From Sphaerolaimus hirsutus (lineage: Eukaryota > Nematoda > Chromadorea > Monhysterida > Sphaerolaimidae): a stretch of DNA of 64,000 bases. The translations under genes and the position numbers were made by a program. The notes under the pieces were generated by a model that was not told the DNA's origin, ran no database searches, and saw only the letters and a list, made by a program, of their open reading frames with translations. Below, one piece after another: positions 30,810-44,940 of the stretch. The stretch covers positions 26,484,787-26,548,786 of the forward strand of contig OZ038457.1 of assembly GCA_964036195.1 (NCBI GenBank). The letters run 5' to 3'. Each line of letters begins with the position of its first letter. Position 1 is the stretch's first letter.

Positions 30810-31417
30810 TAGTGATGGAAAAGCGCCAGAAAAAAGGGCGCCAGGCGCCAATGGCGCCATGGCGCCATGCGGAAACTGGGCGCCAAGCGCCAAGGGCGCC
30901 ACAGAAAAAGGGCGCCAAGCGCCAAGGGCGCCATGGCGCCATTCGGAAAGTGGGCGCCAGGCGCCAAGGGCGCCACGGAAAGAGGGCGCCAAGCGCCAAG
31001 GGCGCCATGGCGCCAATTGAAAAGAAGGGCGCCAGGCGCCAATGGCGCCAGAATGAAAAAGCGAGTAGAATACCCTGCGTGTGCTAAAAATGCTTCTCCA
31101 GCACTGTAGTGCACACATTCACATCTTTATTCATGTTCTCCAGGATGTAATCAGCAAAAATGAGACTAGCAACATACTTTTGTGCAAAAACCGTACTCAC
31201 ACGTGATATTCAATTCAAACACTTTGAAAATTCTCATTCGACAAAACAATGAATGCATATCAAATAGATTTTCCAATATATGTTTTCTTGAAGCGGACGA
31301 CAACGGAATTGCGATAATTTCAATCCGTTGATTTACGAGTTTGCAAATTCACCGGTCTATCATGCTCAGCTTCTGATCCGTTACACGCATCTGATAAAAA
31401 TTGGATGAAACATATAC

Positions 31418-31440
31418 ATTATTATTATTATTATTATTAG
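31418..31440 (-). repeat. 3' microsatellite tail (TAA)n of the LINE
   Basis: Seven ATT units on the plus strand, reading TAATAATAA on the LINE strand, follow a GC-rich 3' UTR end (CATGTTACTAATAA). Such tails replace poly(A) in several APE-type LINE groups. Confidence 0.8.
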
Positions 31441-31592
31441 TAACATGAGATACAGGGCCCTACCCATTGCTGGGTTCCGCCCCTCTCACTCCTATCTCTG
31501 CCAGGGCTAACTGAGGGAGATCAGCTGTACCCTGACAAGCTCAACCTATCAATATGTTTCTGTATTTTTGTATTTTTGTATTTTTATAAAGA

Positions 31593-34500
31593 TCATCGAT
31601 CAGTTATTTGCACCACACATTTACGTATCATGCTATCAATGCCCCTTCGGTGGGCATGGCATAGTTTGGCTCCGAGGGGATTTACCCTCCAATCACACGG
31701 TATCGTGCAATGTATTCTGTCCAATACTTTACGCTCCTCTACATTGATACGACACATGTAGAGAATATGATGTAAATTAGCCACGATTTTAACATGACTG
31801 GATGAGCAGTGCTTGCATACCTTTCTTTTGGCACCACTCCTAGTCCGGAGGGCGTTGTATCTGGCAGCTAACCAGTTGAGCTCATTGTAATATATATTCT
31901 TTATTTCTACCTGATCCAGCACACCACCTCTATTTGTAATGGCTGTTTCTTTTTTGATTTTGTCCCGTGCGTGTATTAACCTTTTCCTATGAATGTAGCT
32001 TTTTATATCTGATCCTCGCAGGTGTACAATAACCATGTTCATCTGTGATGACTGAATACACTGCTGGACCAGAGTCTTGTTGGTATTATCGATTTTCATG
32101 CGCGGATTACCTGACAGCAACTTGTCTGTTTCATGGGCTCTTACAAGCCACCTGGTCCTACTTGCCCGTTGCATGTAGTTGTCATTTGTCAATAGTAGCT
32201 GATTATATTTGTCAGACGGTAGTATACTGTTCAAATCATACAGTATAGAGCTGGTGCTACAGCTAATTGGTAATCTAGCAGCTTTTTTCATTGTCTGTAC
32301 ATATATTTTGTCCAGCTCCACTAAGTGGTAATTGTCTAAGCCTGTCACCTCTACCCCGTACATTGAGCCTGGTTCCACGTATGCCTTCCATGTGATATTG
32401 GCCGTGTGGAGTGGTGTGATTGTCCCTTTTGCTGCACTAAGGGCTAATGTACATAACCGTTTCATTTTGGTCAAGACATTCTGCTTGTGTGCTTTGAAGG
32501 GATCTTCACCAGTGTTTATTAGCACACCCAAATATCGTATCTGATCTGTTTCTCTTATTATTTCCCTTGTTTTGTTTCTTGCGTCCCCTACGTCTATGTA
32601 CCATTTTCTTTTTGGAATCTTGCTATCTCCCCATCGCAGCACCTCACTTTTTGATGCATTGATACTTACACTCCATTTCCAGGCCCATGAGCTGAATACA
32701 CTCATTAGGTTTTCTAGCTCACTGTCTCGGGATGCCATTATCACAATATCATCGGCAAAGAATAGTGCTGGAATTTTTTCATTCCCTAGGCCGCATTTGG
32801 CCCCCATCCTCGTTTTCAGTAACTCAGTTGCCAGATCATGTATGTATATTGCATATAGCGTTGGGCTCAGGGCACACCCCTGTGCAACCCCAATCGGGTA
32901 GTCCAGTGTGTCACTTTCATAGCCCCCATATGTCATTACCGCCTTCGTTTGTAGGTATACATTAGCAATCGCTGTAACCAAGGTGATTGGTATTCCCATC
33001 ATCGTCATCTTATTCCATAGTTTTTCTCTGTCAACTCTGTCAAAGGCTTTCACTGCATCGATGAAACAAGTAACAAATGGATTGCCATTCACTTGCGCGT
33101 AGTTATAGCATGTTTTCAAAATTTGTACATTATCAAGAGTCCGTCTACCTGGGCGGAAACCCCCCTGCATTTCTGTCAGGGCATCATTTTCTTCTAGCCA
33201 TCTTATCAACCTACGATTTAAAACTGACATGTATACCTTTTTGATATTGCATGACAACCCTAGTGTGCGATAATTTTTGAGGTTTCCTTTATCTCCTTTT
33301 TTATGAAGCAAAATCATTTTGCATAAAGCCGATTCCACTGGTATTGGCTCGCCCTCAAGCCAGTTATTGAATATTGTGCAGAGGGTTATTTGATAGCCCT
33401 CCTCTAGTAGTTTGAGATGTTCATGAAAAACACCTGTTGTACCTGCTGATTTATTATTTTTCAAGTTCAAAATTGCTTTCTCAATTTCTATAAGTGTGAT
33501 TGGTACAATCAATTTTTCAGTCGATTTCTCTGGTGCCATAATTTTTGGTATACCCCCTATTTCCGATATCGTACACCCCGGATTTGGCGTAATCACTACC
33601 TGCCATGCCTTTTTCATCTGAGTATTCATCGCAGAGACAGATGCAGCTGGCTCTCCGTCCTCATCATATATTGTGTGCACAACATCTCTGTCCCCACTAC
33701 GTATTTTGTTCACCTTTTTGAAAATTTCTTGCATCTGATATTTGCCACCATGTTTTGCCAGATATTCAATATGTCTCTGTTTTTCTTCCCGGTCCAAAGT
33801 ACTCTTAATGTTGCGGAGATTTTTCCGTTCCAGCTTTAGCTCACAGTTCAGTTTTCCTTGCAAGCTGTTGTCTAACATTATTCCCTTTGCTTTTAATTTC
33901 CTTCTCAATTTGGCTATCTTGCGGCATTGTTTCCTTATTTGACTTGGCACTTTTGCCACATTTACGTCATATGCTGGTATAACAGCAGCCCCTTTGATTG
34001 CATCAACAACCTCCGAATAGGTTTCTGGATTACTTTTTGCTAGTTTCTTTTGGAACTGTACCTCGTCTTCCACCTTTTTTGGGCGACGAATTCGATTGCC
34101 GGGTGGATCTAGCTTGATCGTGTAGCTAAACTTCATATATATTGCATTGTGATCCGATTGTATACTACTGTATGTATTACATTCGTCGACAGACCCTTTG
34201 CTCATAGTCACCCAACCATCTGTAAAGCACAGATCTAGGACAGATTTAGCATTAACTCGTTGGAATGTCCACAGCCCATCCATGTATCGATTAACCGGTG
34301 ATAGACCCGTTGTGTTCATGAAACCACGAACCAGTTTACCATTGGTATTTATGCATGGATCATTACCCTCGAGTCCTAGTTCATCATTCCCAATGTGACC
34401 ATTGAAGTCGCCTATAACTAGCGTATTCTCGCCATTTTTCCTGTTTGATTCAATCAGCTGGATAAGTGATTCTAATATATCGCTATTCAGTTTATAAACA

Positions 34501-35041
34501 CTGTTTGATTTTTTTATTTTACTATTGTTTTCTAGATAAACTACAATTATATTTAGATTTGTGCATCTAGTTTTTGTTTTTTGCGAGACTCGCTTCATAG
34601 TGTACTCCGAGGTATCGTCTTGCAAGCCGGGGTGATCAGTTATTTTCACGCTAAGTATATTGCTTGTCAAGTTGTCATTGACTCTGTTCAGGGTGTATTT
34701 TATACCCTTGCGTATGTACATTGATAGGCCGCCCGTTTTTGGCGCGTTTTTGAACTTATGTACCCCTGTATAGCCACCTATGTATGCACATTCTGAGGCA
34801 TTTTCATATTGTGTTTCAGTGAAGCATAGTATTTCAGCCCCACTTTTTTTTACAGTGTCCAGCAGACACGAAGCCTTGGATTTAAGACATCTTACATTTT
34901 GGTATAGTATGGATAATGCTAAAAGTGTGGTAAGACCATGTGACAGGTGCATTGCCTCAGCCCCCCCTGCAGCATTAACGGGGGTGAAAAGAGACATAAA
35001 GAGCACAAGTTGGAACCATTTTGTCACAGACTGACGAGTAT
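31593..35041 (-). CDS. LINE ORF2 exon: APE endonuclease - reverse transcriptase - Cys/His motif
   Basis: This is the enzyme part of the LINE, which nicks target DNA and copies the element RNA at the nick. The acceptor GAAACTCAG|ATACTCG is at 35042. Next comes a hydrophobic stretch (LVLFMSLFTPVNAAGG). The endonuclease starts near 34925 (ILYQNVRCLKSK, GAEILCFTETQ), with VIGDFNGHIG and SDHNAIYM near its end. Reverse transcriptase follows: NYRTLGLSCNIKKVY, GGFRPGRRTLDN, CFIDAVKAFDRV, GVAQGCALSPTLY, and catalytic FADDIVIMAS near 32750 (FADD in place of YADD). The end is CKHC...HHILYMC (31820-31755), a Cys/His motif common at LINE C-termini. No RNase H domain was seen. All catalytic motifs look intact. 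Confidence 0.92.
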
Positions 35042-38000
35042 CTGAGTTTCTCCTACATTGATAATGCTGCACATTTATGCGTATTTTACGATTATGGTAT
35101 ATTATTATTTCAGCACCAGCGTTTTTAACCACATTCAGTGTTCGAGCATAAAAATATTTCACACTCCTTGCGTGTTGATAGAACAAAGATAAGGTCGGCG
35201 ATTTATCGAATATGTCTGGTATTGTCGAGATCGATTTGTCGTTTATCGTTTCTACCTCACATATATGAATGAGACGTGTCAGTAGAAACAGCCACCATGA
35301 GATGGTGTGATTATTACGTCGCAGAATGTGTGTGTAAATAGATGGTATCCCCAATGTATGAATCACTTTCAAGTACACTAGGAAAGCACCTAGTATTGCT
35401 AGATGCCAATTATATGTGTAGCTGCCAACATTCTCTATCCACAGCAATAAGTTCATGTAGCTCACGAAAATATCAAAATGCATGCATATAGAGACACACA
35501 TGAATGCGGAATCAATACAATTTTCGGTGTCAAAGCGTAGTAAGTGCTCAGACGCAATATTTTGCTGAATACCAATATTGTAATGTTCAATGGTCAGCGA
35601 TTCCAAACTCTCGCATACTTTTTCTAGAATATTTTCCGAAATTGCATTCAGCAAAATACTTTCAAACCTGCCGGTATGTATCTTACTATAAAGTAATTGG
35701 TACAAAGGGTAATTGTTTGTGAGTAAAATAAAATCCAGATCACTTTCTTCGTGAGTGAAATTGAGCCACGTTGCGAAACACACCGGATAACGTGAAATCT
35801 GCAAAATGTATGAAATTTTATACATAAAACTTGCGAGATTTTGTAAATCATCATAAATGCCGCGTATTTCTGCGTGGAACAACGATCGAACCGTCATATT
35901 TATCGTATGGTCAGATTCAAGTACTACTGTAAGTGTGTCAGATCTACCATTATCGACCGGGCGCGAGTAAAATGTCGATCTGTAATCTTTGAAATGCCAC
36001 CCCAAACTTTTCAAGTTGATCTTTCTTGACTTTGCAAATCGAACCGTAAACTCACATGAAAAGTTAAAAAGTCTCACTGTGCGTCGTTGTTTAGACGGGC
36101 CGACGCACCGGCCCGTATCAGCCGGTGTTGCGACACTGTCTGCTGTCTTAATCGGAACCAATGTGTGTGAAGTGTGCCGCCACCGATATTTGAACGCACC
36201 CGAGACCTGCGTACATGTTTTTGATTTTGTGTGTAATGGAATATAACGTGACATCGATAAACTTGAAGTCTCATACAAGCACACACACCTATTTTCTGTT
36301 GCAGTGTATGGTGTCAAGCGTTTACTCATTGTAGCGGATTTAGAAAATTTAAAGAAAATTATACAGTTTTGGAAATTTGTAATTATATCACAATACTCAC
36401 CAAAAGATGAAAAATGTGCCATGGTGCGCCACAGATTAGTCGGGCCGACGCACCAGCCCGAGACCATATCTGCGATAGTGACCGATAGTGTTTTTACTTT
36501 GCCATAAATTTCTATAAACACTGTTAAGTAAGTTTGGCAAATGTGTTTTCTGTTCGGAACAAAAGGGATATAATTTTTGAATTCCAGCGAAGACTTGTAT
36601 TTTTGACTATTGTCATCAAAGGCATCATCAAAGGCCTCACCGAAACGTAAAATATTCAGAATAGTGCGTCTACGAGTAGTCGGGCTGACGCACCAACCCG
36701 AGCCGAAATCTGAAAATGATACGCATAGATTTGCTATTTTGCCAAATACCCATTTTGTGTTGCAGGATGTTTTTGTTGTGTTGGAATTCCTATTAACATC
36801 TGTTGCTGAGTGCAATCTAATTTCACGTGATTGTAGGAATGTAGCAGTCGCTACAAATGCACAAAATCCCCCAAACTTACGATATAAAGATGAAAAGACT
36901 GATTTTGAACATAATCCCCACCACCGTTGCTCAGCTTTACCACACCTGCATAAAATGATAGGGTGAGTTGGTGATATCTTCGCTGTATAATGCAAGAGTG
37001 AAAGATATGTAGGTATATTTGGATAAAATATGTAGTTGTAATTGTATTTGGAAAAGGTTTCTCTACTTTCCTGCCTTGGAGAGCATTCACGATTATAATT
37101 TTCATTTTTGAGGGGATATTTCATGATACATTCACGTTTAAGTAGCCGTTCTAAGCATATACGAACCTCTATTTCTAATCCCGCTTTTCCAGAAATGACG
37201 TTATCGAACGTTGTTGATTTTTCTGCCGCTGTGCTATTTCGAGCCGCCTTTTGCGTGTCCTTTCCACCTGTGTGTGGCGAAAGAAGTGTAAATGTTATGT
37301 CGAGAAATCGATAAAATGTAAATTTTGAAACACACATTGTTTTTAGGGTCTGCAACAGAAGGTGTCCTAGAACCTTTTTCCCCGTTGTGGATGGGTGCAA
37401 TCCATCCCTAGAGATCATGTTTGTCATTGCACGCAACGGAGATTGCAGCCCCATTTTCTTGTGGTTGTTCAAACAAAAACTCATGATCGGCAGAACCATG
37501 ACTTTCGGGCATCGGACTTTCAGAAAATCGATTAGTGAATTTTCCAAGTCAAAGTAAAAATAAAAGATTTCAGCCGTCAGTTCTTCGCACCATGATGAGA
37601 AATTGAAATCGGGTAGAGTTGGCCCGATCAAGCTCAATATGAAACGCCCGTGGGGTTGTAATTTGAAGGAATCTGCCTCTTCGATCTGTTTCATCAATTC
37701 ATAGATCGGTTGTAGAAAATTGTTTCTGATGGTTACTCCCGGATATTCAGTGGCCATAGAAAGTTCAATATCCGAACTGTCCAGCACCGCTCTGACAACA
37801 ATCGCGTCATATGCTGTGGACATAACATTGAATTTCAGACCAGTGCCGATTGTATTTAGACGTTGCCCATTATAAATTGACCCGGTTGAATCCACATGAA
37901 TTTTAACATTTTCCACCTCTGCCTGACGAAGCAGTTCTGTTTTGAGCGCCACACTCGTACTGTCCCCGGTGATGAAGACAGTAAAGAAGTATTCGATAGT

Positions 38001-41000
38001 GCGGCATTTTGTAGTTGGAAAGTCCACAATCTCAGAAAACATGTCCCTTCCGTCAGAGGTTCGATATCCCATCTGAGGCCCCAAAGGGGGCATGATTTTG
38101 AGGCGGCGTAGGACGCTCATTGGCGCAAGAAGCGTATTTTGCAACGATTTGTCACGCAAAAGTTTCTGTTCCGCTATTTTCCCTGATTTGATACTCAATT
38201 TGAGAAAACGTAAAATCTTTTTCTGATTTTTGAGTGACAAATCCGTGAGCTCTGTGTAAGTAGTTGGTCCCATGCACGACACCTCTCTGTTGCACCCCCT
38301 ATGTATACTCAGCCCCTTACGTACCTGAGAAAGGGGAGGAGCTTGTTCTCGAGATGCAGTGTGTACTTCAACATTGTGCGTCTCACTTGCCTGCGTCGGG
38401 GCTGAGCTGTCTGCGACAGTCGTGCGCACCGGTGCCTCGGGCGAGTCTGCAATAGAGCACACATGTACAGTATATAGTAATGGTTTCATAAAAACTGTCT
38501 TTATCATTGAATTTTTTTCCAAGACATCCATTTTATAACTTTCTATCTCTTTGCATAAAAGTAGAAATAATTTTTTTGCGATTTTGTGGCATACCAATTT
38601 GTTAGAGCTATTTGTTGAAGACGTATACGGCGCGTTTGCTGTACATGGCGCACAGGACACATACGTAGAACATGACCTACAAAAAGTCCCTGGCATGAAA
38701 ATCGTATGTGATAATCTAAATATCCCATCAAAGAAGGACGTTTGATAGCACTTACCGAATTCCATTTCTTCGTCGAAAAGCGTGCCTTCGTCAAACATAT
38801 CATGGCCCTCCTCTGAGAAATACTCTGTCGTCGGTGTTACGAGATCCGATGGGACATTTTCCGCCACGGGTTCTTCCAGTGTAGCCACCGGCGCTGATGC
38901 CGCATCCAGTTTCGGTTTCCCCTGAACCATTTGCATAAGCTGCATTATCTTTGCATTTAGGGTTGCCAGATCGGTTTCACCTGTAAATGAAAACGGCAGT
39001 TGATAACTTTTGTCAATGAAATGTTTGTATGTTAAGGATATAGGTACCTTCTTAGTACGTTTCAAAAAGTCGAAATTCAGGATAAAGTTTATACACCCAC
39101 CGCTTGTAACTTCTGCGCTGGTTCTAGCCTCGCTTAGGATGTTTTCCGTCATTTCGCTCAGTGTGTTGTCGATATTTGGTTCCGGCTCCGTTGCGCCATC
39201 GAAGCGAGTCGACAAAAGTGCACTCGGTGTTGCACTTACACTGCCGCGACCCCGGTAACTGTTGAAACGGTCGCCACGTGGTTGGCCGCGTCCACGTACG
39301 CTTGACCCGCGTCCATTTGACATTTGCCCGCTGCTCGCAGAATTTAGCATGTCTCCACGGCCCCGGCCACGGCCAGGACCCCCGCGACCACGGCCGCGAT
39401 TCTGAGAACAAGAAAGTGCATGTATTGAATGTACCAATTTTTGGCCAAGTGCCAAATTATAATCCCCCGCGTCAGTTATCAACGATATTTTATCTTTTAT
39501 AGTAGCAAGTGACATTTTTAGATGTTGTTTCACATGGTAGCATTTGTAGCATTTCGTCTTTTTTACCACGACAGACAAATTTTTATATGTGTTGGCGCGA
39601 TACGCCGAATTATCGTAAATACTTGGCATAGATTCAACATAAAAATGTAAATTTCTTCTAACCCGTAGCATAAAGGCCACCCTTTTATTTATTCCCTTCG
39701 GATCCGTCACTTTCCAGCGGCCTTGATTTTCACATTCTACAAAGGTGCCGTATTCTTTCATTTGTACCCACTGGCCATTATCGTTGCGTTTTCTGTACGC
39801 CATTTTCAGTGTGAGTTTTGCCCTCAACTCCATTAGTGCGTCGCCCCAAAGACTCATAAAAGGAGCTTTATAATTTGCACCCACACATGTAGACAGCGAC
39901 ACCTCAGTGGCCGATTTGTCGTAGCCACACATTAGGGCCCCCCTCCATCCACTGTTTGGAAACGATCCTGTACAACGTATGAAGCGAAAATTATCCTTCA
40001 CAGTGTCGCCAGATTTTTCTTTGCCGGTCTGCCACAAAAGTTGCCTCAGTTGTGGGTTGGTCATAATGGCATTACCAAGAACTTTGAGCAGCGCTTTGTA
40101 TGCGGGCGTTTGTTTTGCTTCTTCTTTTGTATCGTACAATGTCTCAAATGAGCGACCAAAACCAGTGTTAAACCATAGTGATTTAACAGTTTCACCTTGC
40201 CCGCATTCATAAATCCAGATTCGGCTCCAGGCACCATTCATTTTTCCAGTGAAGTCATAGTACTTCTCATCAAAATCAGAGCCATTATGCTTCACAAAGA
40301 ATGGTATGCATGCAAAAACGGCATTTTCCAGCTCTTGACTTCCAAGTGCCTTAGCCTCCGCCTGAAAAAGTGACGTATGTTTACGTTTACATGCACCGTT
40401 GTGTGTATAGTTACAATTGCACATACATATGTGTGAAAATGTACATTTACATTTACATTTAAATATATTGTAATACTTCTTATTTATAAAGTTGATCAGT
40501 TTTGTATAATAAGTTAGATGAGGTAGACTTGCAGAAAAACCTTGTCCCCTATCACCAACCATCATTAGAGCTAATGCGATGCAGGGGAATTCCATGCCAT
40601 CAAATTTCACAGTCCATGGGCACATCATGCTAAGTGGGTCGGTTGGATCGTTCAACCACACCAGCAGGTCTTTATCCGCTTTTCGGCCGCGATAGTCCTC
40701 GGGTATTTTGGCAGATTTTTTTGTGTCCATGTCGCACGCTGGTAATGCCATCTGCGAGTAGTGGTGTCGGATAGGAAATGGTGACGTATAAATTGTATGA
40801 TTTCCCCAGTATTTCATGCAGACACCCTTGTGCATGACGCAGTTGACCCACGGAGAATCGAAGATGATTTTTGTGTATTGTTTCAACCCATTGTGTGTAT
40901 AAATGTTACCGTCACATCCGTTCAGTGTATAACCAAAAACTATCCCTGTCATTAGAGCTATTAGAACCGATACACCTACATTCAATCTATTCATAATCCT

Positions 41001-44000
41001 CGGCGTGTTGAAATAAGAATTTACAGTGTCACTCACGTTTTGTTCGATCCGCATTTTCTTTGGATCGGCCGCCGTATCTGGAGTTTCCATTTTGCGCTTT
41101 TGTATGCCGCTGGTACCCGCCCCCGTAACAGCACTGGCATATGACGTCATTTTGTTGGCAGTTGAGTCTATCTCGTCTTTCAGCTCAGTAATCCGGGCGA
41201 ATAATTCATCGCGTTTTTCCGTGCCCTGAAAAATGGTGATTTTAGATAAGCATGATTGCATAACAGTATCGTACTCGGCCCGTGAAAAATTTTTTGAAAT
41301 GTATGGGTATGTATCAGTTGACTGTTTATTTACAGTTACATTCGTAATTGTACATCTTGGTTCGTCAGAGAAAACATATCGACGTTGTAGCAAGTATAGA
41401 TTGAAAGTTGAAGGTGGATAGAAATTTGTTATATAGGTCACCTTTTTATCAAGCGCTGCAACCTTATCATCCAAATTTATCGTGTCATCCATTAGCATAC
41501 TGATATCCTTCTCAATTTGGTCAACGCGGCTCCATAGACCATCAGTATCTTTTTTCAGTGCACTCGCCATTCTCGCCGTAAATACCTCAAACTGCGAGAT
41601 AGGGTGGTTAGTGTGTGGGTCAAATACCGATTTGTGATCGAGTTTATCGATCCTGAGAAAGTCTATCTTTCGATTTTCAGCATTTTCGTATTTTATGATT
41701 TTTGAAATTTTTATATTTGTTGATGAAGTTTGTGACGCCCCCAATTTTGAACCTTCACTTAGATATCTTGAAAATCTACTCACCTTTTGGCAAAAGTGTG
41801 TCGACAAATTAATCTCATTTAAGCAGTAGTTCAGTAAGTGAGTCGACATCATGATAGCTCTGGATGCGTGATTATTTACGTCGAGCCCAGCGACACTTTT
41901 TTGCATTTCACTGATGACCTTGTCGGGGTCAAAAGCTACTTCCTCCACAGTGTAGCGTCTTTTGAGATCAGCGCCCATGCTAGGCCAATCGACGCGTGCG
42001 GGTCCGTCATCTGTATCCGGATCTGTAAAGTATGTGTGCGTGTTGATGTACATTATGACAATATCGTAAGGATATAAACCGGAAATCAATATGTTTGGAT
42101 CAGAAGCGTAGTGCCTATCATTTTCGGACAATATTACGTTCATTCTGAACCTTAGACTAGACATGATAATATGGTATATTGATATTTTTTTATTCCGTTC
42201 TTCTTCATATATGTAGATATATTTTGGCATTTTCCCAATATCCCCATAGACCGGACTTAGCTCCCACCAAAGGCAGTAAACACTGATGTTTTGCGTACCT
42301 ATTAGTTTTCCCATCTCGCTTGTCTGCATTTTTCGACTTTTGTAGACCTTCAATTCGCCTTTAAGGTTCAAACCGTCGATGCGTTTATTCGAAGCCGAGA
42401 TCACAGCATCTTTGCGACGTTTTGCCAGCGAACCCATTTCTGAGAAAGTATATGATGTGTTGCACAGCAGCCGTATTGTTGGTGTCAAAGATAATGCAAC
42501 CCCCCTTGGTTGTGCGACAATCCACACTTTTCTTACAAAATTTGAAGAAATGGCAAGTTGACACGAGGGCGGATTGAATGTGTTAAAATGCACTTTTACC
42601 ATCTCACCTTTTTGGGCCGTTTTTCTGGTCGACGCGCGCGCAAAAACCTCATTTTCGAATGAATGCACTGACTGCTTTGCCAATTTCGAGCTGCGAGGAC
42701 TGGTTCGAGTTTTTTCATCTGTTTCTGTCGCCTCATTATTAGATTCGGATATTTTCAACCCCCCTGAACCGCCCTCAGCTTGCTGCGTATCACATGGCGC
42801 TAGTTCCGGTGAACCTTCATCGATTGTTTTCTCCCTGTGGATAGGAGGAATTTTTGTTAACGGTGGTAAGTGGCAGGATGAGTGGTGAATTAGAGATTGT
42901 GTGTGATTAGGCGGATCTGTTTCTCGAGTATGAGTTATAGATCGATAATCAACCAGGCATTTTAAACCATAATATCTAATGTTGAAATCGTATTTGACAT
43001 CTTTGACCCCCGTTAGATCACCCAATATACAATTTGTAACCACAAAAACATATTCAACTTGCATAAATAACCCCGTATACCTTGTGATCTTCGCCAATCG
43101 TGACGGGTGTGGTGTAACTTTATCAGCCGAGGCATGTGGATGGCGCGTGTTTGCACGTACGATTCGCAGCGCCAGTTTTTCAGCTTTTGTTTTTCTCTGG
43201 ATGGCATTCTGTGAGTGTTGAAGAGTTACGCACTGTGTATCAACAACAGCGTAGTAAGTGACATCAAATTTACCCCCAGAGCTATTGTGTTTAGCTACTC
43301 CCATAAATATATAAAATGCACCAAGTATACCATTTATACCATGCCAAACCCCCAAATCAAGTTCACTTGAACTCACTTCGAAATCTGTGTCATCATCGAT
43401 GACCAAAATATCCGCATCAGTGTCGCTTTGCTCAACCAGGGTGGGTTCAGTGGGTATTTTCCTGGAAACCGATTTTGTGCGAGTTTTTCGAGTAGTTTCT
43501 GCCTGTTCGTCGCCCATAATGTTAGTAAGCAATTGTAAGTTAGATAAAAATCGGAAATTACGGTGAAGCCGGAGCCTGAGATAATAGATAAGATGCACAT
43601 TAACGCTTTCTGACAGCGGTAAGTCATTTAATGTTGAGCGTAGGCACCATTTGTCTATCATCGTTGTAGATACCACCCCATTTTTACATTTATGCATAAA
43701 TTTTCTCCCAAATATTAACCATTTTGTATTTTCGTCAACCCCAGATTCGTGTACTTCACTCAACATAGCAAAAAACTTCTTGTGGTGACAGATATACGAC
43801 CCCTGACGTTGAGTAGCAGTATGTTGACCCATTTCGCCTCGTGTATCATTTATTTGGTAAAATGCCAATGTTAGATTTTTTATCAGCGTAACATCATTCG
43901 CGACTATGTGTGCGATAGATGACCCCACGACAGAATGCCAATAATATTGACATAATATTCCCCACTCAGGTATTTCGAGATTGAATGAAATGAAGTCATG

Positions 44001-44637
44001 GGTTAGGTATAATAGAGATGATGTCAAAGTTCTTTGGCATCTGGCCAACTCGGCTAGGTCGACTATTTTGTCGAAATGGGTCAACTGACGCACTCCAAAG
44101 AGTTCCGACAGTGATCGGGAAGCAAGTAACTCTTGTGCTTCCCCTACAATCCCATACCATACACCCAGATATTGAATAACATCATGTAGACGTGATAGAA
44201 ACATCATGTCGTGTTTTTGGCAGATTGCCAAGGCTCGATTTTTGGTCAGCGTAACAATGTACGCGACCATTTCAGCAAAGAGAATCGATGCCCTGACAAT
44301 TTGCCAGTAACATCGACAGATTATGCCAAACTCAGGCATTTCATAGTCAGATGAATAGTAAATAATGTAATTTAGACCCTGATTTGGGTTCAAAGGTAGT
44401 AGTACCAAAACTCTTTGGCACTTGGCCAACTCGGCCAAATCGACTATTTCGTCGAGGTAAGTCAGCTGACGGACTCCGAAGAGACTCGGCAGTGACTGGA
44501 AGGCAGAAAACTCATCTGCCTTCCCTACAAACCAACTGTAACCGCGTGTAGCCGCTTCTAACAGCCTTGATGTGTCGTGACCGGAACTTTTTGTTCCGGT
44601 CGTTTTTCTTTTTTTTTTCCACTCACACCACTTTGTC
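31593..44637 (-). CDS. Single frame open for ~4,350 codons through leader, exons and introns of the LINE
   Basis: On the minus strand one frame runs from just after a TAG at about 44640 to TGA near 31593 without a stop. It includes segments that look non-coding in composition (rich in H, Y, I, C, F) and begin and end with strong splice signals. Hydrophilic, domain-like segments alternate with them. The first in-frame ATG followed by convincing coding sequence is at 43517 (MGDEQAETTRK). Whether a full-length polyprotein of over 4,000 residues is made, or only spliced products, cannot be decided from DNA. Either way the frame is real: at 3 stops per 64 codons about 200 would be expected by chance. 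Confidence 0.85.
36056..36139 (-). CDS. Cassette exon gamma, 84 nt, phase 1-1, carries pseudoknot
   Basis: Acceptor GACAGCAG|ACAGTG and donor TTTTCAT|GTGAGT. Core TGRCVGPSKQRRT. The last 69 nt align with alpha and beta; the extra 15 nt arise from a more upstream acceptor. All three exons preserve the frame whether included or skipped. Confidence 0.55.
36079..36116 (-). ncRNA. Putative H-type RNA pseudoknot, copy 3
   Basis: Stem 1 ACGGGCC/GGCCCGU and stem 2 GUGCGUC/GACGCAC, all Watson-Crick. Loops are 1, 0 and 9 nt (CUAAACAAC). Relative to the other copies, the first stem-1 pair changes from U-A to A-U and the last from U-A (via U-G) to C-G, which are compensatory changes. Confidence 0.65.
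36401..36469 (-). CDS. Cassette exon beta, 69 nt, phase 1-1, carries pseudoknot
   Basis: Acceptor CACTATCGCAG|ATATGG and donor CTTTTG|GTGAGT. Core SGWCVGPTNLWRT. It aligns with exon alpha without gaps across all 69 positions. Confidence 0.65.
36424..36461 (-). ncRNA. Putative H-type RNA pseudoknot, copy 2
   Basis: Stem 1 UCGGGCU/GGCCCGA and stem 2 GUGCGUC/GGCGCAC, with one U-G pair in each. Loops are again 1, 0 and 9 nt (last loop CUAAUCUGU). The stem-2 A-to-G change keeps pairing. Confidence 0.65.
36641..36709 (-). CDS. Cassette exon alpha, 69 nt, phase 1-1, carries pseudoknot
   Basis: Acceptor CATTTTCAG|ATTTCGG and donor TTTCG|GTGAGG. It encodes SGWCVSPTTRRRT at its core. It is one of three tandem related exons: alpha and beta have the same length and are separated by an intron of 171 nt, and the intron before alpha is also 171 nt, giving a 240-bp unit. 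Its role as protein or RNA is unknown. Confidence 0.6.
36664..36701 (-). ncRNA. Putative H-type RNA pseudoknot, copy 1
   Basis: Sense strand: UCGGGUU - G - GUGCGUC - AGCCCGA - 9-nt loop - GACGCAC. Stem 1 UCGGGUU/AGCCCGA (7 bp, one U-G) and stem 2 GUGCGUC/GACGCAC (7 bp). Loop lengths are 1, 0 and 9 nt, which fits the classical geometry on this strand only. Confidence 0.65.
36881..36945 (-). CDS. Possible 65-nt LINE exon before the cassettes
   Basis: Acceptor TTTTATGCAG|GTGTGG and a perfect donor TATATC|GTAAGT. The 3' end (TTTTCATCTTTATATC) resembles the end of exon beta, so it may be a decayed fourth cassette without the pseudoknot. It enters in phase 2 and leaves in phase 1. A matching upstream donor was not found. 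Confidence 0.35.
37334..38446 (-). CDS. LINE ORF1 SGNH-hydrolase (esterase)-like exon
   Basis: Long exon after acceptor CTATTGCAG|ACTCG (38447). SGNH block I is seen as VFITGDSTSVAL near 37965 (Gly-Asp-Ser nucleophile). Block V is seen as SRDGLHPSTTGKKVLGHLLL near 37400 (Asp-x-x-His dyad). About 185 residues separate them, normal for the family. Esterase domains are known in ORF1 of CR1-type LINEs. The N-terminal third is Pro/Ser/Thr-rich followed by a basic helix. The exon end (37334) and the following 66-nt intron-like segment are uncertain. Confidence 0.65.
38756..38980 (-). CDS. LINE ORF1 acidic linker exon
   Basis: Acceptor TTCATTTACAG|GTGAAA (38981) and a perfect donor TTCG|GTAAGT (38755) frame a 225-nt exon. 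It encodes a short helix (DLATLNAKIMQLMQMVQGKP) and an acidic tail (FSEEGHDMFDEGTLFDEEMEF). No known domain. Confidence 0.6.
39101..39401 (-). CDS. LINE ORF1 RGG-rich exon
   Basis: Acceptor TTGTTCTCAG|AATCGC (39402) and donor AGCG|GTGGGT (39100). It encodes an Arg/Gly repeat (NRGRGRGGPGRGRGRG, then SSVRGRGQPRGDRFNSYRGR). RGG boxes bind RNA, so a role in packaging the element RNA is plausible. It ends in an acidic tail (TEPEPNIDNTLSEMTENILS). Confidence 0.7.
39663..40751 (-). CDS. LINE ORF1 NADAR/YbiA-like domain
   Basis: Exons 40560-40751 and 39663-40361. NADAR proteins act on ADP-ribose or related nucleotide derivatives. The match rests on spaced motifs I recognise: WTVKFDGMEFPCIALALMM (family: the F-x-x-DG-x-x-[WY]P strand and helix), YKALLKVLGNAIMTNPQLRQ (helix ending in NPxLRxLLLxTG), and LWGDALMELRAKL (family: LG-x-x-LMEVR). 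The conserved Glu of the family's first helix (SEHY/VEQYY) is not visible, so activity is doubtful. The donor at 40559 (ATG|GTTGGT) is weak. GTGATA eight bases downstream is an alternative, but in another phase. Confidence 0.5.
41037..43208 (-). CDS. LINE ORF1 exons 2-7, charged and coiled-coil region
   Basis: Predicted exons: 43081-43208, 42608-42834, 42299-42439, 41784-42022, 41442-41591, 41037-41225. They are hydrophilic, rich in E, K, D and S, while the segments between are hydrophobic and A/T-rich. Exon 4 is basic (SLAKRRKDAVIS). Exons 6 and 7 have heptad-like runs (WSRVDQIEKDISMLMDD; ELFARITELKDEIDSTANK), suggesting a coiled coil that could trimerise as in other LINE ORF1 proteins. Phases match at each junction: 0-0, 2-2, 1-1, 1-1, 0-0, 0-0 and 0-0. 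No enzyme domain was recognised. Confidence 0.6.
43377..43517 (-). CDS. LINE ORF1 first coding exon (MGDEQAETTRK)
   Basis: The ATG at 43517 begins 47 codons, basic then acidic (RKTRTKSVSRK, then SDTDADILVIDDDTDFE), ending at the donor TTCGAA|GTGAGT (43376). No known domain. The start choice is inferred from the change to a charged, low-complexity coding composition. Confidence 0.55.
43520..44560 (-). repeat. LINE 5' leader with two 381-bp tandem units, open in the ORF frame
   Basis: Two copies of a unit with period 381 bp (127 codons) are seen. The segment reading LFGVRQLTYLDEIVDLAELA near 44480-44420 recurs as LFGVRQLTHFDKIVDLAELA near 44100-44040. A fragment of the unit (LGVWYGIVG) recurs as LGVWHGING just inside the first intron-like segment (43350). 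Tandem 5' monomers often act as LINE promoters. Here they also keep the protein frame open. Confidence 0.75.
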
Positions 44638-44717: not shown

Positions 44718-44940
44718 TGCTGGCGCCATTTTGGCGCCCTTTGAGGGCAGGGCGCCAGGCGCCATGGGCGCCACGGAAAAAGGGCGCCAAGCGCCAAGGG
44801 CGCCATGGCGCCTTTCAGAAAGTGGGCGCCAGGCGCCAAGGGCGCCACAGAAAAAGGGCGCCAAGCGCCAATGGCGCCATGGCGCGGCGCCCTTTGGCGC
44901 CCTCAAATGGCGCCAGCGCCATGGCGCCATTCCATCACTA

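Follow-up and report, generated by a model that had tools for sequence, protein, structure and literature searches.

The window, a 64,000-nt stretch of a Sphaerolaimus hirsutus contig, carries on its minus strand a LINE whose predicted ORF1 introns, 5′ leader and long stretch upstream of ORF2 are all free of in-frame stop codons, and comparison with other copies confirms this observation. We consider it likely that the template RNA is unspliced and translated through to ORF2, that spliced RNA makes the ORF1 protein and that the introns drift while remaining stop-free.

The preliminary description of this DNA gave an open frame of about 4,350 codons; from stop to stop we find 4,347, ending in a TGA codon at 31593-31595. 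The ORF listing of the whole window holds one ORF of at least 200 aa, at 31593-44438 on the minus strand. The end of the frame encodes a LINE endonuclease and reverse transcriptase (RT), with ORF2 of the window matching RVT_1 (4.9e-30) and Exo_endo_phos_2 (1.6e-9), and with LINE-1 and R2 RT structures among 10 PDB matches to the RT. The element is laid out as follows.

31593-44636, minus strand: open frame, 4,347 codons
44581-44599, minus strand: hairpin CCGGAAC..GTTCCGG beside a purine run, near the 5′ end of the element (from the sequence)
43518-44636, minus strand: open leader with an in-frame tandem repeat, 43853-44152 / 44216-44533 (stop count)
43512-43528, minus strand: TTACTAACATTATGGGC, likely ORF1 start codon, ATG at 43515-43517 (comparison of copies)
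37335-38444, minus strand: conserved ORF1 exon with a putative SGNH/GDSL-esterase-like core, GDSTS.. at 37941-37967 and DGLH.. at 37380-37406 (weak profile match)
35022-37334, minus strand: unconserved long stop-free stretch upstream of ORF2, with a candidate small exon at 37188-37268
34971-35021, minus strand: conserved hydrophobic segment KWFQLVLFMSLFTPVNA, signal-peptide-like, ahead of the endonuclease and lacking a conserved Met (alignment)
34149-34898, minus strand: endonuclease domain, Exo_endo_phos and Exo_endo_phos_2 (Pfam-type domain match)
32523-33302, minus strand: reverse transcriptase domain RVT_1 (domain match and RT structure matches)
31752-31820, minus strand: C-terminal Cys/His motif (by eye)
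31418-31592, minus strand: 3′ UTR with two shared hairpins (31455-31483 and 31500-31536) and an (AAT)n tail at 31418-31438 (sequence of copies)

Both ends of the element recur in other copies. The 3′ UTR and tail are common to 11 copies, and hairpins and a repeat tail at the 3′ end are LINE traits. In the 3′ UTR hairpins (31418-31592), we also note that some base pairs are altered on both sides among the 11 copies. At the 5′ end, a similar hairpin or purine run is seen by eye in the other copies inspected, and ACTAAC..ATGG marks the likely ORF1 start in five of six copies, those whose site was inspected. 5′-truncated copies exist (L005 and L011). No clear target-site duplication is evident by eye. 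A GGCGCC repeat flanks the window copy (30852-31013 and 44721-44885) and occurs also elsewhere in the window and in the 3′ flank of L002; this repeat looks dispersed.

The GDSTS.. and DGLH.. motifs of the conserved ORF1 exon are, we presume, the core of an SGNH/GDSL-type esterase. Profile matches of this exon are weak (SGNH, E 0.077, 2/6 members; Lipase_GDSL, E 0.18, 1/6), and PDB profile searches with two ORF1 exons return only matches with E >0.2, which we take as chance, and no esterase. For spliced ORF1, no Pfam family scores at or close to its cut-off, and none of the 7,977 candidates scored is a homologue at E 1e-3. An AlphaFold model of the SGNH exon, made from a single sequence, had a mean pLDDT of 34 and was discarded.

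In seven copies no AUG is conserved from the hydrophobic segment to the endonuclease, and at the Met of the segment itself some of 20 copies have Leu, Val or Cys instead. ORF2 is therefore most likely reached by translation from upstream. The last position of the hydrophobic segment is Ala in the 20 copies inspected (L006 aligned by eye), and the segment with its final Ala resembles what we take to be a signal peptide with its cleavage site. Because the leader is open, translation should begin close to the 5′ end of the element; inspection by eye reveals no start codon shared by six copies upstream of ORF1.

To place the introns we aligned seven translated frames, those of the window copy and six further long copies, each joined from contiguous stretches. 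At matching places, conserved blocks give way to stretches that align poorly, and donors and acceptors lie at the block edges in three phases. Thirteen predicted intron positions (A-M) are common to the seven copies, giving 84 introns of 105-504 nt, all of a length divisible by three (3n); L009 is counted for introns F-M only, and the positions and phases in the other copies agree. The positions in the window are:

43209-43376, minus strand: intron A, phase 0, GT..AG, 168 nt, stop-free
42835-43080, minus strand: intron B, phase 2, 246 nt, stop-free
42440-42607, minus strand: intron C, phase 1, 168 nt, stop-free
42023-42298, minus strand: intron D, phase 1, 276 nt, stop-free
41592-41783, minus strand: intron E, phase 0, 192 nt, stop-free
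41226-41441, minus strand: intron F, phase 0, 216 nt, stop-free
40752-41036, minus strand: intron G, phase 0, 285 nt, stop-free
40362-40559, minus strand: intron H, phase 0, 198 nt, stop-free
40044-40045, minus strand: junction at the site of intron I, exactly absent here and present in ten other copies
39902-39903, minus strand: junction at the site of intron J, exactly absent here and present in ten other copies
39402-39662, minus strand: intron K, phase 0, 261 nt, stop-free
38981-39100, minus strand: intron L, phase 1, 120 nt, stop-free
38447-38755, minus strand: intron M, phase 1, 309 nt, stop-free

Where at least fifteen GT-AG segments had been proposed for the window, we recognize eleven mapped introns (A-H and K-M), the leader and the stretch before ORF2. 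The earlier estimate of roughly 1,750 apparently non-coding codons is near the figure of about 1,950 that we obtain by alignment with other copies. When introns A-M are removed, six copies yield colinear ORF1 proteins of 1,248-1,417 aa; the spliced ORF1 of L004 retains one extra segment of >100 aa, which resembles an additional intron. Within one exon, split matches likewise suggest that some clades have more introns.

The preliminary description rightly cautioned that a 3n length is meaningless inside an open frame, and stops were therefore counted in other copies. In the 84 introns of the seven long copies, which like the other copies in these main counts were chosen largely for their long open frames, none of the 6,619 in-frame codons is a stop; the many stops in other full-length copies that would have pointed the other way are not found. 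Shifted frames of the same introns contain 509 stops in 6,573 codons (+1) and 467 in 6,547 (+2), and the three minus-strand frames contain 472, 411 and 442, each of about 6,600 codons. The leader gives a similar picture in six copies, with 0 stops in 1,621 in-frame codons and 91 and 93 of 1,615 in the other frames (for L002 the count ended at a Met earlier than the likely ORF1 start), as does the stretch before ORF2 in eight copies, with 0 of 5,528 in frame and 341 and 392 of 5,520 in the others. In the window copy this last stretch is about 770 codons long.

A less selected sample comprises 30 copies (of 41 scored), 24 of which match ORF2 from residue 11 or earlier. Seventeen of these 24 are free of in-frame stops over the 1,500 bases upstream of ORF2, where the other frames have 23-51; the remaining seven have 1, 3, 10, 13, 20, 27 and 40 in-frame stops. 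Five more copies or parts of copies outside the 84 introns contribute 54 mapped introns, of which 49 are open and 3n; stops by frame number 13, 353 and 352, and three positions were unmappable.

Lesions of the frame are concentrated in introns I and J, in five copies (L010, L014, L018, L041 and L042), and a break in the frame may therefore be tolerated there. The lesions in J are those of L010, L014 and L018, and those in I belong to L041 and the C408 copy. At least five further lesions lie elsewhere, in intron E (L041), in intron M (L020), before ORF2 (L010) and between E and F (L009), and one deletion spans J to L. Four copies that were fetched mainly as mates in close pairs are otherwise open: L018 has a single stop, L014 one frame change, L010 two frame changes and L005 a 5′ truncation.

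Movement of an intron-bearing RNA is indicated by a recent pair of copies on contigs C2 and C3, both with frames of 4,407 codons. The comparison covered the stretch of introns L-M, the 3′ end and the 3′ flank. Over 1,200 bp containing introns L and M there are five differences, and over the 277 bp that lead to the shared poly(A) tail near the 3′ end there are two; the best local alignment stops at the tail, and the 3′ flanks differ. The 3′-core pattern was not found in this pair, and a run resembling the GGGTAGGGCCCTGTATC of the window is present by eye. The kept introns, common poly(A) tail and different 3′ flanks point to retrotransposition of an intron-bearing RNA. This one pair supports unspliced RNA as the probable retrotransposition template and agrees with the earlier suggestion that the genomic RNA retains its introns.

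In the model that we favor, ORF1 and ORF2 would form one frame, interrupted by at least 13 spliceosomal introns that are kept 3n and stop-free. The unspliced RNA would be the template for retrotransposition, and the enzyme would be made by reading down from upstream of ORF2. If this enzyme works chiefly in cis, on its own messenger, an assumption taken from other LINEs, ribosomes must be able to read the template through the leader and all of the introns, and a single stop or frameshift would end a lineage. Part of the RNA would be spliced at the sites listed above, giving a compact ORF1 protein that lacks the intron peptides, and intron sequence would be free to drift, bound only by the splice sites and the absence of stops. 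We infer the translation of the unspliced RNA, the cis action of ORF2p and the role of the spliced RNA from these patterns.

It is also conceivable, though unlikely, that protein is made from spliced RNA only, that stop-free introns avoid nonsense-mediated decay or a harmful stub under leaky splicing and that a separate template, unspliced or antisense, is used in trans. Stop-free 3n introns are those that escape decay, introns I and J may tolerate lesions, and antisense templates have been raised for intron-retaining Penelope elements in the available part of one report (PMC3846280). On this account, however, stops should survive in some well-spliced introns, but the 6,619 codons contain none, and the open leader is left unexplained. 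Stop-free 3n introns are rare in ordinary genes, according to Jaillon et al. 2008 as cited in the available text of PMC4484396.

GT..AG boundaries are found in 83 of the 84 introns (one acceptor corrected), the exception being intron L of L004, which begins GG. The 3′ ends are pyrimidine-rich and terminate in CAG in 82 cases and TAG in two, with CAG at all 46 phase-0 acceptors. A yeast-type branch point, CTAAY, occurs in the last 60 nt of 9/84 introns. Donors of the form GTRA are absent from phase 2 (0/12, versus 32/72 in the other phases; Fisher p 0.0026), where GTRA would put TAA or TGA in frame.

Constraint within the frame was examined in two ways. First, the codon-position information in six copies is 0.0230 bits for ORF1 exons and 0.0053 for introns, the latter equal to the 0.0053 of simulated stop-free sequence of matched base composition (20 runs, maximum 0.0065 bits); in introns A-M, stop avoidance by itself accounts for all of the codon-position signal. 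Sense-codon use differs among the three intron frames, a difference that conditioning on one frame may explain. Second, dN/dS outside ORF2 was calculated for the stretch before it, from a few pairs of copies, three of the five being built from L005, L009 and L010. The values are 0.71 (L005/L010), 1.06 (L005/L009), 0.73 (L009/L010), 1.4 (L004/L025) and, from few changes, 3.1 (L014/L015), and ORF2 of the same five pairs gives 0.06-0.25. As many random changes would be expected to produce about 11 stops in this stretch, and none is seen. In three of the five pairs every gap length is divisible by three; the other two also contain gaps that are not. The pair L017/L018 was left out upstream of ORF2 because L017 is frameshifted there. 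The uniform codon-level constraint that the preliminary description would have read as a plain giant ORF is thus not what is observed: ORF2 is strongly constrained, and the open stretch before it is not. We also note in this stretch, for L016 with L035, an 876-bp tandem duplication, 98.9% identical and with a period of 879 (3 x 293), in which the frame stays open.

These observations make it very improbable that there is no splicing and that the frame simply encodes a giant polyprotein whose linkers evolve quickly. A frame open throughout is what such a polyprotein would have, and no spliced read has been seen; but this reading does not account for GT..AG boundaries, CAG acceptors and pyrimidine-rich ends at common places in three phases, for a donor choice that depends on phase, for introns with no coding periodicity beyond stop avoidance or for the exact absence of introns I and J from the window copy.

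That absence also gives indirect evidence that splicing occurs at the shared GT-AG sites. In the window copy, exon meets exon exactly at the predicted splice sites of I and J, and both introns are kept in 10/10 other copies read there, including L041, a relative with 58% identity. Because these ten copies have both introns, loss from the window copy is the simplest interpretation. The two introns lost are the same two in which frame lesions cluster. That the introns are real and the open frame serves partly spliced RNAs, with I and J usually removed and the rest retained, would fit the loss and the lesions, but I and J are still open in the six long copies having both and were kept in all ten copies just mentioned, and we regard this as the least probable reading. 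The non-uniform constraint, the stop-free copies, the GT-AG sites and the loss of I and J together support the earlier proposal that the element is selected to be translatable both spliced and unspliced.

The element belongs to a sizeable family. ORFs that by eye resemble lectins and carboxypeptidases suggest an animal host. A search of the 348-Mb assembly with ORF2 finds at least 41 places (of 1,371 candidates) at 57-100% identity, of which six, the window included, have frames >4,000 codons; frames of related copies reach 4,609 codons. L041, at 58% ORF2 identity, matches this layout in the parts examined and carries one frame change and one stop. With a single ORF1 exon as query, a search gives at least 125 matches (111 of 334 candidates scored), and by our own count from this search at least 38 elements, reaching about 30% identity, have frames of 3,000 codons or more. 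Among 150 RVT_1 matches scored (of 3,823 candidates), 85 have a short RT span, which by our own reading is LTR-like, and 65 a long span, which we read as LINE-like. The median frame is 1,201 codons for the short-span matches, with three of at least 2,000, and 1,542 for the long-span matches, with 24 of at least 2,000. Two short-span matches of equal score (G000:C3:21887261 and G000:C16:23421047) have frames of 4,837 codons and are perhaps another retroelement class with a giant frame. L014 and L015 are 95.7% identical over ORF2 and the last 300 bases before it and only about 70-79% identical in ORF1 exons, which indicates mosaic elements and suggests template switching or recombination. Beyond the family, ORF2 has distant homologues only; plasmids yielded five distant matches, viral contigs none.

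How does this element compare with known systems? Retroviruses use one RNA unspliced as genome and spliced as messenger, and retroviral introns encode proteins. The retrovirus-like strategy of the preliminary description stands as a strategy, in that spliced and unspliced use of one RNA is proposed here, but the likeness goes no further: this LINE is not a virus, and its introns show nothing conserved. Among LINEs, APE-type elements with an esterase ORF1 (CR1/L2, type IV ORF1; PMC4120745) resemble the present element in their ORF2 endonuclease and RT and in its putative SGNH-like ORF1 block. As far as the accessible text of that study describes them, they differ from the present element, which has one frame for ORF1 and ORF2, at least 13 introns, a stop-free leader and stop-free introns, and an SGNH match that is weak. 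Human LINE-1 also has splice sites inside a LINE, and its spliced RNAs can be inserted (SpIREs), with cis preference forming part of the model; the spliced copies are reported as defective in the portion of that paper available (PMC5860796). In the present element, by contrast, diverged copies share the splice sites, and their introns remain readable.

Exitrons are stop-free introns that are translated if retained and consist of protein-coding sequence, as summarized in the part of PMC4484396 at hand. The introns described here share the lack of stops but have no coding periodicity, their codon-position information being at the random stop-free level, and no mapped intron of the long copies contains an in-frame stop. 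Intron-bearing Penelope-like elements offer a likeness in that retroelement-linked copies retain introns, but their RT class and endonuclease differ, and stop-free introns are not described in the available part of the report (PMC3846280). Among the open-licence literature matches listed, the titles and abstract openings describe no stop-free introns in a LINE.

Movement through RNA should strip an element of its introns; in this family diverged copies retain them, and in readable form. We lean towards extending the model to the whole LINE superfamily to which the element belongs, in which the spliceosome would be optional: unspliced RNA would serve as genome and as messenger for the enzyme, spliced RNA would supply ORF1, much of the sequence would evolve under a no-stop rule, and the signal-peptide-like segment, if used, would free the enzyme by cleavage. 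If the model is correct, cis action in this retrotransposon has turned into selection on the introns it carries, and the element would provide a natural test of cis preference. It would also provide a large body of sequence selected for little but the absence of stops, which could be used to ask what the ribosome and the spliceosome require.
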